64,000 bases of DNA, from assembly GCF_012769535.1 (NCBI RefSeq), contig NZ_CP046565.1:746434-810433 (forward strand), in the 5' to 3' direction. Within the stretch, counting starts at the first letter, position 1; every line of letters starts with the position of its first letter. Source of the DNA: Methylococcus geothermalis (lineage in GTDB: Bacteria; Pseudomonadota; Gammaproteobacteria; Methylococcales; Methylococcaceae). The notes below the pieces were generated by a model. That model was not told where the DNA came from and searched no databases. It worked only from the letters and a program-made list of their open reading frames with translations. Shown here piece by piece: positions 21,739-37,977 of the stretch. Both the position numbers and the translations under genes were made by a program.

Positions 21739-21754
21739 TGTCATAAATCCGACA
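21739..21754 (+). promoter_or_regulatory. NifA-type upstream activator site
   Basis: The sequence TGT-N10-ACA (TGT at 21739-21741, ACA at 21752-21754) is the consensus binding site of NifA. It lies about 140 bases upstream of the -24 element at 21894, inside the usual range for NifA enhancers. One such match could occur by chance; its value comes from pairing with the sigma54 promoter. Confidence 0.55.
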
Positions 21755-21893
21755 AAACCGGCATCCGCCCGCGCCGGTGTTGGAAAAATACCAGGCGGAA
21801 GACGCCGGCCCGCAGCATCATCCGGGCACGGCATACCCTGAAACCCCGGGTTTCAGGCATCCCCTTCGGTTCTCCGCCCACCCGCGCAGGCGA

Positions 21894-21908
21894 TGGAACG
21901 CTGTTTGC
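21894..21908 (+). promoter_or_regulatory. Sigma54 (-24/-12) promoter of the amine oxidase operon
   Basis: TGGAACG (21894-21900), four bases, then TTGC (21905-21908) followed by T. This differs from the consensus TGGCACG-N4-TTGCW at only one position and keeps the invariant GG and GC at the correct spacing. Expected transcript start is near 21920, about 20 bases before the amine oxidase ATG at 21939. Confidence 0.75.
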
Positions 21909-21938
21909 TGGGAATCGTTATGATAGGAAGAGCCCCCC

Positions 21939-23510
21939 ATGCTCGAAATCGCAATCGTCGGCGGCGGCCTGTGCGGCTTGGCGCTTGCCCAGGGCTTGCA
22001 GGCCCGGCAGCGCGACGTCGCCTTGTTTGAGGCACGCGACCGTCTCGGCGGACGCATCCTGTCGGTGCCCAGTGAAAAAGCCGGCATGGCGCTGGACCTC
22101 GGGCCCACCTGGTTCTGGCCGGAAATCCAGCCGCGCATGCTCAAGCTGGTCAACGATCTGGGGTTGCGCAGCTTTCCCCAGCACGATACGGGCGAAGTCC
22201 TGTACCTGACCGACCACGACAAGGCACCAGACACCCTGAGCCGACCCGGTCTGCACGGCGGCGCTCACCGTCTCGAAGGCGGAATGGCGAGCCTGGTGGA
22301 GGCGTTGCGGCGGAATCTGCCCGCTGATGCGCTGAGATTCGGCCATGTGCTCACCGCCGTGGCCGATCGCGGCGATCACGTAGAGCTGAGCTTCGTCTGC
22401 GGCGGGGACACCGTCGTCGCCGCCGCGCGCCGCGTGGTGCTCGCGATGCCGCCGCGCCTGGTCGAAGAACGCGTTCGCTTCGAGCCGGCCCTGGACGGCA
22501 AGGTACTCGACGCCTTGCGCGAGACCCACACCTGGATGGCCGACCAAGCAAAGACGGTCGTCGCATACGACAAACCCTTCTGGCGCGAGGCCGGCCAATC
22601 CGGGAACGCCTTCGTCCAGCACGAACATGTCGTGCTCGGCGAAATCTTCGATGCCTGCGACGCGAATGCCGATCGGGCCGCCCTCGGCGGCTTCTTCGCG
22701 CTGCCTCCGGAGGCGCGAGCCAATCTGCGGCAAGGCCTGCCGATGTTGGTGTCCAGCCAGATGGTGCAGGTCTTCGGCATCGCGGCAGAACGGGGCGAGG
22801 CGCACTTTCAGGATTGGGCGGCGGAGTCCTATACCTGCAGCCGGAGGGACCACGTTCCTCCGGACAATCATCCTGAGTACGGCCATCCGGTATTGCGGCA
22901 GCCGCTATGGGGCGGCCGGCTGCATTTCGGCGGGTCGGAGACCGCGAGCTACGGCGGCGGTTACCTTGAAGGCGCCCTTGAGGCGGCTGCCCGGCTCCAA
23001 AGGGCGATGGTCGTGGAGCGGCCCTCGGTCGCGCCGGGGATTGGGCAGAACGAGCAAGGCATCGCCGAGTTCGGCGAGTGGGTGGCCACTCAGCGCGGGG
23101 CCGTTCTCGAGCGCTACAAACGTCTGCTCCACCAGAATCTGGCGAGCCAGCGCACCGAGCAGCTTACGCAGCGGGCCGTGCTCGGCGTGATGGAGCAGGT
23201 CTACAGCGAAGCCTTGGCAAGGCTCGGCGAGTTGCCCTTCCATGCCCCCGGCGCCAGCGTCGAAACCGAGCTGTCGGCGCTGGCGCAAGCATTGCTGGCA
23301 CCCTTCGTCGGCTTCAACAAGTTCCTGCTCGACGAAGCGATCGCGTTCAACGGCGGTTCCTGCGCGCTGTCCAATTTCCCGTCCGAGCATCGGCCGTCGC
23401 CCGACTATCTGGAAACCACGGCCCGCGACCTGGCCGCAGCCTGGCGCGAGTTCGCCTACAACGTCAACGCCCTTCTGGCGGGCCGCCTCGCCGTGCGGGC
23501 GGCGGCATGA
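21939..23510 (+). CDS. Flavin amine oxidase family protein with C-terminal extension
   Basis: A 523-residue protein. The N-terminus holds an FAD-binding dinucleotide fold, IAIVGGGLCGLALAQGL, with FEARDRLGGRI, the signature of flavin monoamine oxidases and related desaturases. The FAD C-terminal motif is seen at WGGRLHFGGSETASYGGGYLEGAL. The last 140 residues form a helical extension not typical of the family. The substrate is unknown. It is the first gene after a sigma54-like promoter and is followed after 28 bases by a ModC-like ATPase, so a role linked to nitrogen fixation or metal supply is inferred from context only. Confidence 0.8.
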   Translation: MLEIAIVGGGLCGLALAQGLQARQRDVALFEARDRLGGRILSVPSEKAGMALDLGPTWFWPEIQPRMLKLVNDLGLRSFPQHDTGEVLYLTDHDKAPDTLSRPGLHGGAHRLEGGMASLVEALRRNLPADALRFGHVLTAVADRGDHVELSFVCGGDTVVAAARRVVLAMPPRLVEERVRFEPALDGKVLDALRETHTWMADQAKTVVAYDKPFWREAGQSGNAFVQHEHVVLGEIFDACDANADRAALGGFFALPPEARANLRQGLPMLVSSQMVQVFGIAAERGEAHFQDWAAESYTCSRRDHVPPDNHPEYGHPVLRQPLWGGRLHFGGSETASYGGGYLEGALEAAARLQRAMVVERPSVAPGIGQNEQGIAEFGEWVATQRGAVLERYKRLLHQNLASQRTEQLTQRAVLGVMEQVYSEALARLGELPFHAPGASVETELSALAQALLAPFVGFNKFLLDEAIAFNGGSCALSNFPSEHRPSPDYLETTARDLAAAWREFAYNVNALLAGRLAVRAAA

Positions 23511-23538
23511 TGGAGAGCGAAATTCGGAGGAGCATTCG

Positions 23539-24660
23539 ATGCTTGAACTGGATGTAAGACTGAGGCGGGGCCATTTCGATCTGTCCGCCCGCCTGGCCAT
23601 AGACAGTCCGATGACTGCCTGTTTCGGGCCGCCTGGCGCCGGCAAGAGCACCCTGCTGGGCATGATCGCCGGCGTCGTCAGTCCGCATCGCGGCTGGATC
23701 AGGCTCGGCGGCGATACGGTTTTCGACAGCCGCCAGGGCGTGCGCGTGCCCGCCGCCCGCCGCCGGGTCGGCCTCGTGCGCTTCGATCCGGCCAGCCACC
23801 CGCGGCAGACGGTACGCGCGCTGCTCCAGGACGCCCATCAGAATTCGGCTCGAACCGGTGCTTTCGGCGTCGGCGAGGTGGTCGAGCTGCTGGAGCTGGA
23901 GCCCTTGCTCGAGAGCGGCGTTCAAGCCTTGACGCCGGGACACAGGCAGCGGGTTGCCCTGGCGCACGCGCTGATCCCTGCGCCACGCCTGTTGCTGCTC
24001 GATGATCAGCTCGAAGTTTCAGGCGTCTCCAACTCGGGATTGCTGCCCTATCTCACGCGGGTTCGCGATGAGTTGAACGTCCCCGTCATTTACGTCAGCC
24101 ATTCGCTGGGCGAGGTTTTGCAGCTCACCAACCGCATGGTGTTGATGGTCAATGGCCGCATCCTGGGGGTCGGGGATCCGCATGAAATCATCACCGACAA
24201 AATCCTTTCCGCCGCCTCGGCCTTGCAGGGCATAGAGAGCATCCTTCCGGTGACCGTGCTGGGCCATGAGGCCGAGAATGGCTGCACCATCGCCTACTAC
24301 CACGGCACCGAGCTGGTACTGCCGATGGCCGCGCATCTGACGCCGGGCGAATCCGCCCACGTGTCCATCCGCTCCAGCGACATCGCGTTGTCGAAGCACC
24401 ATCTGCAGGGGACGTCGATCCAGAACCAGATCAAGGGCCGAGTGTGCGCCGTCATCCGTACACCGGGGCACGCCGTGGTACAAATCGACTGCGGCATCAC
24501 CCTGCTGGCGGGCATTTCCCTGAAAGCGCTCAACGAGATGGCTTTGCGGGAAGGAGACAACGTATATTGCCTGATCAAGGTGCATGCGTTGTCCTATGTC
24601 GGCAGCCCATCTCGGGAGCGGAATCGCACCGACGCCGCGGAAATGACGGTCAGGCATTGA
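23539..24660 (+). CDS. ModC-like ABC ATPase, degenerate
   Basis: A 373-residue protein laid out like the molybdate importer ATPase ModC: nucleotide-binding domain (1-230) and C-terminal MOP/TOBE-type domain (about 290-355). Walker A GPPGAGKST and the H loop YVSHSLGEVLQL are intact. In contrast the Q-loop segment reads VGLVRFDPAS without the usual glutamine, the ABC signature is LTPGHRQRVALAHAL rather than LSGGxxQRV, and Walker B is LLLLDDQLE rather than LLLLDEPLA. No modA or modB is adjacent. It may act as a molybdate or nucleotide sensor rather than a transport motor. GGAGGA precedes the start at 23539. Confidence 0.78.
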   Translation: MLELDVRLRRGHFDLSARLAIDSPMTACFGPPGAGKSTLLGMIAGVVSPHRGWIRLGGDTVFDSRQGVRVPAARRRVGLVRFDPASHPRQTVRALLQDAHQNSARTGAFGVGEVVELLELEPLLESGVQALTPGHRQRVALAHALIPAPRLLLLDDQLEVSGVSNSGLLPYLTRVRDELNVPVIYVSHSLGEVLQLTNRMVLMVNGRILGVGDPHEIITDKILSAASALQGIESILPVTVLGHEAENGCTIAYYHGTELVLPMAAHLTPGESAHVSIRSSDIALSKHHLQGTSIQNQIKGRVCAVIRTPGHAVVQIDCGITLLAGISLKALNEMALREGDNVYCLIKVHALSYVGSPSRERNRTDAAEMTVRH

Positions 24661-24689
24661 AGAAACCAGCTATTACGAGGCAGATATCG

Positions 24690-25001
24690 ATGAGCACCTA
24701 TATCAAAACGACGCAGGACGGCCGCAAGGTCGAAGTCATCGGACTGGCCGTTTGCCTCGACGGCCACAAAGAAGCCACCCGTCTGGTTTCCGTCGCCGAA
24801 CACCCCAACCGGGCCGCCATCCTGGCGGTGATGCCCGATGCCACCCACATGGCCGGCAGGCTGCCTCTCACGGCGGAAGAGGCCGTTGCCGTCCAGGCTG
24901 CGCTCGATGCGGGGCGGGAGGCCTATGCGCGGAGCCCCAGAGGTATCTCGGAACGGATCCGTTGGGTACAGAACCAGGCATTGGCGAACCGCGACGGCTG
25001 A
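24690..25001 (+). CDS. Small protein of unknown function in the putative nif-associated operon
   Basis: A 103-residue protein starting MSTYIKTTQDGRKVEVIG. No known domain is recognised; it has no signal peptide or membrane segment, and one cysteine. It lies 29 bases after the ModC-like gene and 17 bases before the DUF364 gene, so it is almost certainly cotranscribed. The start ATG at 24690 is chosen because the longer open frame back to 24444 lies inside the ModC-like gene. Confidence 0.7.
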   Translation: MSTYIKTTQDGRKVEVIGLAVCLDGHKEATRLVSVAEHPNRAAILAVMPDATHMAGRLPLTAEEAVAVQAALDAGREAYARSPRGISERIRWVQNQALANRDG

Positions 25002-25018
25002 GCCCACCCCCTTCGCGG

Positions 25019-26014
25019 ATGACGAACCCTTACGAAATCTACGATCTGCTCCAGGATTATGCCGGCGCACCGGTGCCCGTCGGCACCGTGGTCATCGGCC
25101 TGGTCTGGACCCTTTGCGAAGCCGATGCCATCGGGCTCGCGATGAGCCCCGGCATTCACACCCGTACCCTCCCCTGGGCCGGCACCCTGAGGGGCAAGAC
25201 CTTATCCGAACTGGCGGCTTGGCTGCGGGACTTCGACCCGTACCGCTCGACGGTCGGCATGGCGGCCGTCAATGCCGGCATCCACCGGCTCGGCATGCTG
25301 CCGGAAGGCGAGACGCTTTCGCCCGTCATGGGAGGGAACAACAACCTCGCCGTCTTCGAGCATTTCCTCCCCGAGCTGCGAGGCAAGCGAGTCGTGGTGA
25401 TCGGCCGTTATCCGGGGCTGGACCGGTTCGCCGAAACGCACTCCCTGACAGTCACCGTCCTGGAACGTCAGCCCGGCCCCGAAGACCTGCCGGATTCCGC
25501 CTGCGAATACCTGCTGCCCGAGGCCGATTGGGTTTTCATCACGGCCACTTCGATTCCGAACAAGACCTTTCCGCGTCTCGCCGCCCTGGCGAGCGCCGCC
25601 ACCACGGTGCTGATGGGGCCGACCGTTCCCTGGCTGCCCGAACTCCACCATTTCGGCATCGACTATCTGGCCGGTGTGGAGGTGGCCGATCCCGGAATCC
25701 TGAAGGACACGGTGTGCGAAGGCGGAGGCGTACGGATCTTCGACGCCGGCGTGCGCTACCGGATTGCGCCCATCGGCATCGAGGCCAGCAAGCAATGGGC
25801 GCGTCGGATGATCGCCGAGGCGGCTCAGGAGCGGGAGCGCCTCAAGCGGGACATGGAAGCATGGTATGGCCACGGCGGCTCCGGGCGTTTTCCGGAGTAT
25901 GCGCAACTGGAGGCGGTCGACCGTCGCCTGTCGCGTCTCGACACCTGCTTCAAGCGGCTCTGGGACGTCTCTCCCGATCCGGTTCCGGGACGTGTGCCCA
26001 ACCTCGCCCGCTGA
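25019..26014 (+). CDS. DUF364/DUF4213 protein, putative metal chelation
   Basis: A 331-residue protein of the DUF364 family, which has an enolase-N-like DUF4213 domain at the N-terminus and a Rossmann-like domain annotated as putative heavy-metal chelation. Visible features are GMAAVNAGIHRL, VVVIGRYPGLDRF, DWVFITATSIPNKTFPRL and TVLMGPTVPWLPELHHFGIDYLAG cut into its conserved parts. Members often sit near molybdenum, cobalamin or nitrogen-fixation genes. The start MTNPYEIYDLL at 25019 is 18 bases after the preceding stop. Last gene before a fresh promoter. Confidence 0.8.
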   Translation: MTNPYEIYDLLQDYAGAPVPVGTVVIGLVWTLCEADAIGLAMSPGIHTRTLPWAGTLRGKTLSELAAWLRDFDPYRSTVGMAAVNAGIHRLGMLPEGETLSPVMGGNNNLAVFEHFLPELRGKRVVVIGRYPGLDRFAETHSLTVTVLERQPGPEDLPDSACEYLLPEADWVFITATSIPNKTFPRLAALASAATTVLMGPTVPWLPELHHFGIDYLAGVEVADPGILKDTVCEGGGVRIFDAGVRYRIAPIGIEASKQWARRMIAEAAQERERLKRDMEAWYGHGGSGRFPEYAQLEAVDRRLSRLDTCFKRLWDVSPDPVPGRVPNLAR

Positions 26015-26063: not shown

Positions 26064-26091
26064 TTGACGGGTTATTGCTTGGCAGTAAAAT
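26064..26091 (+). promoter_or_regulatory. Sigma70-like promoter
   Basis: TTGACG (26064-26069), 16 bases, TAAAAT (26086-26091): five of six matches in each box. It lies 34 bases before the ATG at 26125 with GGAGAGG as ribosome site. The last gene of the block may therefore be expressed separately from the sigma54 operon. Confidence 0.6.
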
Positions 26092-26124: not shown

Positions 26125-27117
26125 ATGATTGCTGACGTCAGAGTTTTGCCCGAAGCCGATGCGGACACGCCGGTCAGGTTCGACGGCCACCTGCTCGATA
26201 AGCTCTGCAAGGACACGCTGGCGTCGTCCGACGACGCGGCTCTGCTGGAACGGATGCGCCAGGCCTATCCCGGCTCTCCGCTGCACCTCGCGCGCCTCGG
26301 GCACGAATGGTACCGCCTAGGCGGCATCGTCAAGCCGAACGGTGCCCGTATTGCGGCGGACATGGGCGAATGGGCCGAGCGCACGTTCATCGAATGCGGG
26401 CAGAATTTCAATACGCTGCTGGCGCATTGCGAGGAAGGCGGCTTCCTCGCCACGCACCACACCGGCGTCACGCTCTACCTCGTCGCCCAGACCGGGCCGC
26501 GCGCGGAGGATTTCGTCCAGATCGAGGTGGACCGGACACAGGAAACGGCGGACCGCTACCTGATCGATGCGGCGAACCCGCCGGAGGACCTCGAAGAACT
26601 GATCGATCCCATCGAGCCGGTCGGGGTCGAGCCCTTCGCGGTGGGCGCAGCCCGCTATACCTACCGGCGGAAAACCGAGGTCGCCCTGTTCATGCGGGAG
26701 TTGGGCCGGCATCGCCCGGACCGCCATCCCGCCCAGCGCTTCATGGACGACTGGAACGCCAGCAGCGCCGGCCCGCGGAAAGTATTCTGCGAGGACTGGA
26801 GCCTGCGCCTGTTCCAGCACATCGGCCGCCACGGCGAGCAGATCATGAACGTCGAGATCGTCCACAACCGCACTCGCGAAGTGCCGCGCCTGGAGGGCCC
26901 GGACGGCAAGAAGGGCAACGCCTTGGCCACGCTGCTCAATCGCTTCGACGCCCAGGCGGGTTACCCGTTCGCCTGGTATTTCCACATGCTCAAAGGCTTG
27001 GTGTCGCCCCATGTCGGCGAAGCGGTCCATCGCGACCTTTCCAAGGATTACGCCTATCTCCCCGACCGCGACGCTGCCGTGCTGAAGCAATGGGCCGCGG
27101 AGCCCTACTGTTTGTGA
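26125..27117 (+). CDS. Conserved protein of unknown function
   Basis: A 330-residue cytoplasmic protein with no domain I recognise. It begins MIADVRVLPEADADTPV and is rich in acidic residues. A clustered aromatic/histidine segment is visible near LARLGHEWYRLGG and GGFLATHHTG, and there are only four cysteines. It follows the DUF364 gene by 110 bases in the same direction, but that spacer contains its own sigma70-like promoter. A shared role with the preceding four genes is possible and is only positional evidence. Confidence 0.7.
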   Translation: MIADVRVLPEADADTPVRFDGHLLDKLCKDTLASSDDAALLERMRQAYPGSPLHLARLGHEWYRLGGIVKPNGARIAADMGEWAERTFIECGQNFNTLLAHCEEGGFLATHHTGVTLYLVAQTGPRAEDFVQIEVDRTQETADRYLIDAANPPEDLEELIDPIEPVGVEPFAVGAARYTYRRKTEVALFMRELGRHRPDRHPAQRFMDDWNASSAGPRKVFCEDWSLRLFQHIGRHGEQIMNVEIVHNRTREVPRLEGPDGKKGNALATLLNRFDAQAGYPFAWYFHMLKGLVSPHVGEAVHRDLSKDYAYLPDRDAAVLKQWAAEPYCL

Positions 27118-37962: not shown

Positions 37963-37977
37963 TGGCACGCCTGATGC
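37963..37977 (+). promoter_or_regulatory. Sigma54-like promoter of the activator gene
   Basis: TGGCACG (37963-37969), four bases, ATGC (37974-37977). The -24 element is a perfect match and the -12 element keeps the invariant GC, with one mismatch. Expected transcript start is near 37989, about 60 bases before the ATG at 38049. Confidence 0.65.

Follow-up and report, generated by a model that had tools for sequence, protein, structure and literature searches.

What does an operon do whose four tightly packed genes encode a flavoenzyme, a degenerate relative of the molybdate-transport ATPase ModC, a 103-residue protein and a DUF364 protein, and which lies behind promoter signals like those of nitrogen-fixation (nif) genes? 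The question arises from a stretch of the Methylococcus geothermalis genome, here called the window: 64 kb (contig positions 746434–810433) of a 3.37-Mb single-contig genome. Since its promoter signals are nif-like and two of its proteins have relatives that were seen almost only in nitrogen-fixers, the locus is probably an undescribed nitrogenase helper operon, and its sequence makes some role in nitrogen fixation very likely. Which role, and whether it concerns molybdenum, is a harder matter.

A nif-type promoter pair precedes the operon

The operon begins with a -24/-12 element, TGGAACGCTGTTTGCT, at 21894–21909, which has the GG and GC doublets of a sigma54 promoter and leaves 29 bases between its -12 side and the ATG at 21939. 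A NifA-type upstream activator site (UAS) of the form TGT-N10-ACA, TGTCATAAATCCGACA, stands at 21739–21754, with 139 bases between it and the sigma54 site. A preliminary description, made from the sequence alone, had named both elements, and we confirmed each at its place. Behind them on the forward strand follow the genes of the flavoenzyme (523 residues, 21939–23510), the ModC-like protein (373 residues, 23539–24660), the 103-residue protein (24690–25001) and the DUF364/DUF4213 protein (331 residues, 25019–26014); the intergenic gaps of 28, 29 and 17 bases bear out the packing of four genes at 17–29 bases described earlier.

Taken singly, the motifs are near chance. The sigma54 pattern has 2 matches in the window against 1.13 expected and TGT-N10-ACA has 7 against 4.52; genome-wide, the sigma54 pattern has 77 matches and its reversed control 41. 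With sites scored on a consensus-based scale, the window holds one pair with a score of at least 19 and a spacing of 40–220 bases. Its dinucleotide shuffles, 100 in number, average 0.05 such pairs, and five of them contain at least one; at a score of at least 20, the average falls to 0.01, with a pair in a single shuffle. Chance motifs before an ordinary operon, a reading that can point to either motif alone being expected in 64 kb and to the control count, are thus very improbable in the face of the pair statistics, the footprint described below and the nif linkage of the gene products; for the pair itself, the shuffles and the footprint rule chance out, though each motif alone is near it.

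Where else such pairs stand is informative. Over 100 kb (the window and the next 36 kb, in window-based coordinates), 31 sites score at least 18.5, and six have a TGT-N10-ACA within 260 bp upstream: those of the operon, nifH (70877), the genes divergent from nifH (70661), nifE (76203) and a nifS/iscS-type gene (85264), and one on the minus strand at 71031 that, with its UAS only 38 bases away, is probably meaningless. At a score of at least 19 and a spacing of 40–220 bases there are five pairs, the four besides that of the operon standing at nifH, its divergent neighbours, nifE and the nifS/iscS-type gene.

Conservation of the promoter and its candidate activator

Six Methylococcus genomes provide the footprint. 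All 16 columns of the -24/-12 element are invariant in them, as are 12 of the 16 UAS columns, TGT and ACA being kept, and the spacer has diverged, with only 21 of 140 columns invariant (116 of the 140 ungapped). Among nine other Methylococcaceae with the flavoenzyme, a -24/-12 site scoring at least 19, a score that about 2% of random 400-bp stretches reach, precedes the gene in four (G025, G041, G067 and G089). Further afield, of three betaproteobacterial loci only L095 (Oxalobacteraceae) shows the two elements together, TGGAACGGAATTTGCG at -50 and TGTCGCAAATGCGACA at -117; the others lack both. A near-miss ending in TCTTGC[AG], with no GG doublet, is common to five alphaproteobacterial loci, of which L067 also has a TGT-N10-ACA, and eight loci of family f8, which we take to be Methylomonadaceae, have no site scoring at least 19.

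The genome encodes a candidate activator: a NifA gene lies at contig 894426–895931 (TIGR01817, 672 bits with neighbours, over the cut-off). The sigma54 promoter could instead be real and answer an enhancer-binding protein other than NifA, such as a general nitrogen regulator, making the operon one of nitrogen stress rather than of fixation; the genome does encode further proteins that partly match the NifA model, and single motifs are near chance. Against this stands the conservation of TGT-N10-ACA together with the promoter, and the UAS form itself, TGTCNNNANNNCGACA, which has 11 matches in the genome (reversed control, 1), recurs before the nifS/iscS-type operon (831489) and before a ferredoxin-like open reading frame 2.7 kb ahead of nifA (891546). 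We consider a different activator quite improbable. Four of the other eight TGTCNNNANNNCGACA matches were examined (859814, 1149414, 3195524 and 3323543), and no recognisable nif gene was seen at them. The sites at contig positions 3195524 and 3323543 are two identical palindromic TGTCGCAAGCCCGACA sequences, far from any recognised nif gene.

The preliminary description had the operon switched on with nitrogen fixation. The NifA/sigma54-type control implied by this gains support from the conserved footprint, from the other pairs at nif-type genes and from the presence of a NifA gene; NifA binding and induction are to that extent predictions from motifs, which we hold to be highly probable.

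Two of the proteins track nitrogenase

The 103-residue protein matches no Pfam or NCBIfam family at E ≤ 0.01 and, because its best PDB match reaches only E 0.067, has no solved relative. Its gene occurs in 18 of 151 Methylococcales genomes, all within the 82 that have a NifD-model match (80 over the cut-off; Fisher P = 1.2e-5), and in a class sample in 6 of 369 genomes, all within the 38 with a NifD match (31 over the cut-off; P = 8e-7); these P values, like that given for the flavoenzyme below, take no account of shared ancestry.

The second protein that follows nitrogenase is the flavoenzyme, by virtue of its C-terminal domain (23055–23507). Its flavin adenine dinucleotide (FAD) half is of monoamine-oxidase type (PF01593, 130.4 bits, over the cut-off; PF13450, FAD-binding N-terminus, 59.4 bits) and resembles the solved monoamine and putrescine oxidases 8p84, 1gos and 2yg7, its nearest solved relatives (profile E 3e-41 to 1e-32). 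K205, invariant in 16 of 16 flavoenzyme sequences, we take to be the flavin-facing lysine, and amine oxidation is putative. Unlike those oxidases, the protein has an extra C-terminal domain of about 150 residues with the motif SCALSNFPxEH and no Pfam family over the cut-off; this domain is found in 43 of the 151 Methylococcales genomes, every one with a NifD match (P = 4e-15). The preliminary description would have been refuted by a gene set common in genomes that lack nifHDK; for these two proteins the outcome favours it, in that neither the 103-residue gene nor the C-terminal domain occurs in any of the 69 Methylococcales genomes without a NifD match (0 of 69).

Twenty-eight of the 43 genomes belong to family f8. 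At 15 f8 loci that were fetched, the domain is mostly a separate short gene, with an FAD-half match just before it that is long in 8, partial in one and absent in six. At L154, L156–L159, L161, L162 and L164, the two halves of the flavoenzyme are separate neighbouring genes, a fusion/fission pair in methanotrophs.

A profile scan of the genome collection yielded 78 loci of the 103-residue gene, among them loci in Hydrogenophaga, Bradyrhizobium, Azorhizobium, Xanthobacter, Paraburkholderia and Thiobacillus; plasmid matches were found in Paraburkholderia and Bradyrhizobium. NifD is on 54 of the 78 loci and a nif-type gene lies within the fetched flank on 67, and in 41 the gene sits between nifK and nifE on the same strand. 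Of the 24 loci that lack NifD, 23 had their genomes checked: 19 have NifD over the cut-off, three gave weaker results (truncated in G154, a NifE-type match only in G159, fragments in G164), and G157, with FdxB- and DUF683-type genes on its locus, has no NifD match. The 24th locus (L100) carries NifK and NifE. The 11 loci that lack a nif-type gene all belong to genomes matching the NifD model, nine of them over the cut-off and the remaining two being G154 and G159.

Taken to the letter, the preliminary description was right that the window itself holds no nif gene; yet 7,053 bases beyond its end comes the start of nifH, 45 kb downstream of the end of the operon. This gene opens the main cluster, in which nifD, nifK, a ferredoxin gene, nifE, nifN, nifX and a NifQ-type gene come next (names beyond NifH and NifD being our own assignments or those of the annotation of Methylococcus sp. 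EFPC2). Relatives place the trio of flavoenzyme, ModC-like and 103-residue genes closer: in G067, G025 and G089 it follows nifK by 12–23 kb on the same contig. The contig in G025 is the 89,615-bp plasmid NZ_CP070492.1 of EFPC2, which carries nifHDK, nifENX, nifQ, nifT, nifZ, nifB and nifA besides the trio. A search for co-occurrence next to nif genes, suggested earlier, thus found the flavoenzyme domain and the 103-residue protein following NifD and the trio near nif in relatives. In EFPC2 the nif set, nifA included, is plasmid-borne.

Does the operon handle molybdenum?

The ModC-like protein has the ATP-binding cassette (ABC) plus TOBE layout of ModC (ABC_tran and TOBE, the latter at 35 bits) and aligns with ModC end to end, but its best NCBIfam match, TIGR02142 (ModC), stays at 242.5 bits, below the cut-off of 285.05, and no modA or modB lies beside it. 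The same genome has a full-scoring ModC (433 bits). Against that protein, and with motif names as we assign them, the Q-loop Gln, the signature SGG, the Walker B Glu (now Asp) and the D-loop are lost, and Walker A and the H-loop His are kept. The H-loop His is lost as well in the homologues of G025, G067, G081 and G089; the G064 copy keeps Glu, Gln and His and adjoins a gene that is presumably ModE-like. Such homologues were seen in 11 genomes, all Methylococcaceae, in the stretches fetched rather than in whole genomes; at those of the 78 loci that lie outside this family, ModC-type matches either show the canonical motifs or run into the end of the locus.

The gene is under selection, because its frame is open in 11 of 11 aligned homologues and the ratio of nonsynonymous to synonymous substitution rates is 0.10–0.15 in 15 pairs within Methylococcus, as under purifying selection; the same two results rule out a decaying ModC gene. 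Its TOBE half is better conserved than its ABC half, with 75% for TOBE and 59% for ABC when Methylococcus is compared with four other genomes, and 92% and 87% within Methylococcus, a contrast made without true ModC orthologues as a control. This pattern suits a protein kept for binding, not transport. The protein might still serve as a transporter subunit, contributing a degenerate half-site next to the canonical ModC and so tuning molybdate uptake during N2 fixation; the end-to-end alignment with Walker A kept, and the full-scoring ModC available in the genome, are in keeping with this. The loss of the Q-loop Gln and the D-loop, that of the H-loop His in the four genomes named, and an operon that has no permease gene argue against it, and we regard such a role as improbable.

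The DUF364 protein has its two families in order and over their cut-offs (PF04016, 136.6 bits; PF13938, 68.1 bits). Both domains align with those of Dhaf4260 (3l5o) over residues 5–248; unlike Dhaf4260, the protein of the window is longer, at 331 residues, and is encoded in a nif-type operon. Genome contexts given for DUF364 in the consulted part of the Dhaf4260 paper include transport or chelation of iron, tungstate, vanadium and molybdate (PMC2954201). The supply of metal or molybdenum, which the preliminary description had proposed for the whole operon, is hinted at only by this protein and by the ModC-like protein with its kept TOBE domain, and we treat molybdenum handling by the operon as speculative and less likely than not.

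A comparable weight goes to a NifA-controlled operon that has nothing to do with metals, in which the flavoenzyme would consume oxygen or an amine, the 103-residue protein and the C-terminal domain would attach to nitrogenase or to factors that assemble it, and the ModC-like protein would have turned to a different task, regulatory or structural. In its FAD half the flavoenzyme is similar to oxidases of the monoamine and putrescine type, which use O2. The proteins with the strongest nif linkage, the 103-residue protein and the flavoenzyme, have no Pfam metal-binding domain. In addition, the DUF364 gene is adjacent in Methylococcus only and the ModC-like protein is confined, in the fetched stretches, to 11 genomes of Methylococcaceae. 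On the other side, two of the four genes do point to metals, through the conserved TOBE domain and the metal-transport context of DUF364 (PMC2954201, as far as consulted).

NifQ bears on the same question. A NifQ-type gene lies in the main cluster at 80834–81439 in window-based coordinates; its product has what we take to be a NifQ-type motif, and the gene's positional counterpart in EFPC2 carries the annotation NifQ. Simple replacement of NifQ by the operon, considered as a further candidate, is ruled out by this gene of the same genome.

A proposed accessory operon and its nearest parallels

Taken together, we favour, as a reasonably probable account of the whole, an accessory nitrogen-fixation operon whose products would be nitrogenase helpers, the ModC-like protein among them perhaps handling molybdenum. 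NifA would bind the TGT-N10-ACA site, so that sigma54 RNA polymerase would transcribe an operon outlying from the main nif cluster. The ModC-like protein, a former ATPase that has lost most of its catalytic motifs and has kept a molybdate-type TOBE domain, may act as a soluble molybdate-binding or buffering protein; the DUF364 protein, in Methylococcus only, may help to bind metal or pass it on, so that molybdenum could reach the assembly of the iron-molybdenum cofactor (FeMo-co). More speculatively, the flavoenzyme and the 103-residue protein might act in the maturation or protection of nitrogenase. A narrower version, in which the ModC-like protein is a soluble, non-transporting molybdate carrier that works with these two, molybdenum being bound, adjusted or released for FeMo-co beside or upstream of NifQ, seems unlikely.

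Several observations weigh against the accessory-operon account, besides the disregard of shared ancestry in the P values and the uncontrolled TOBE contrast noted above. The four genes do not form a fixed module: the DUF364 gene adjoins the trio in the six Methylococcus genomes only, and the trio is contiguous in just 10 of the 18 genomes with the 103-residue gene (the six Methylococcus, window included, and G025, G067, G081 and G089). In G041 the flavoenzyme and 103-residue genes adjoin each other, and a contiguous trio was not seen in the other seven. Among the nine other Methylococcaceae, five (G052, G055, G061, G064 and G081) have no -24/-12 site scoring at least 19 before the flavoenzyme gene, and in the roughly 400 upstream bases examined, no exact TGT-N10-ACA turned up in any of the nine. 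Around the flavoenzyme copy on a Methylocella tundrae plasmid, no gene closer than 12 kb is annotated as nif. As to molybdenum, binding of molybdate by the ModC-like protein is hypothetical, and molybdenum delivery does not obviously depend on this protein, because the genome has both a NifQ-type gene and a full-scoring ModC.

The regulation has a parallel in pnfA of Pseudomonas stutzeri A1501, likewise diazotroph-specific with undescribed biochemistry and likewise preceded by TGT-N10-ACA and a -24/-12 promoter; according to the consulted part of the source, pnfA depends on NifA and sigma54, and its mutant has reduced nitrogenase activity (PMC2820453). Unlike the operon, pnfA is one gene, for a 31.7-kDa protein, beside nifH, and the likeness is one of regulation, with no homology of the proteins claimed. 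The closest parallel in gene content is the EFPC2 nif plasmid, where an FAD-dependent oxidoreductase, an ABC protein and a 103-residue gene stand in the same order; there, unlike in the operon, the DUF364 protein (72% identical to that of the window) is encoded by a separate gene about 28 kb away, and the genes bear generic names with no described function. Plasmid searches with the C-terminal domain matched only EFPC2 and Methylocella tundrae (2 records).

Open-licence literature searches returned no paper on this gene set. Within the consulted parts of each source, the genome paper of M. capsulatus Bath, whose nif genes are MCA0229–0239, had no match for 'amine oxid' (PMC517821), the Azoarcus NifA regulon paper had none for 'amine oxid' or 'modC' (PMC3916325), and PMC2765452 held nothing relevant. 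In Paraburkholderia phymatum, an FAD-dependent oxidoreductase, BPHY_RS41545, is listed at -6.68 log2 in a nifA mutant (PMC8305402, consulted in part). Its identity with the flavoenzyme of the window is unsupported: no P. phymatum was among the plasmid matches, and the presence of its plasmid in the collection is unchecked.

With this locus, families without Pfam or NCBIfam names (the 103-residue protein, the C-terminal domain of the flavoenzyme and the 330-residue protein next door) join the genes that track nitrogenase, and the full accessory set matters for moving nitrogen fixation into new hosts. A degenerate ModC under NifA-type control would offer a direct handle on how molybdenum reaches FeMo-co besides NifQ.

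The end of the operon and neighbouring genes

The 330-residue gene, n330 (26125–27117, forward strand), has no Pfam family and is also linked to nif: it occurs in 74 of the 151 Methylococcales genomes, 73 of them with a NifD match (broken into fragments in G148); the remaining one, G107, has nifT- and nifY-like open reading frames at that locus too. Where relatives were inspected, the neighbours of n330 are presumably nifX/nifY/nifT-like, LRV-like or glutaredoxin-like open reading frames, except at G025 and at G067/G089-type loci. In G081 it follows the 103-residue gene by 11 bases. Because a conserved sigma70-type promoter precedes it, we left n330 out of the NifA operon, and it is probably a separate transcript. 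The sigma70-like promoter (26064–26091, forward strand; one match against 0.7 expected in shuffles) is conserved in the six Methylococcus genomes, one of which has a single change in the -35 hexamer, and suggests that the NifA operon ends at the DUF364 gene.

Two other places in the region deserve mention. Downstream of the nif cluster, at contig 843804–844668 (window-based 97371–98235), lie two small genes, g113 and g160, whose homologues are on 6 and 46, respectively, of the 78 loci of the 103-residue gene. Within the window, 37963–38786 matches the NifA model as an enhancer-binding protein with an internal TGA and TAA, perhaps a broken regulator gene, and a strong sigma54-like site stands directly before it, at 37963.

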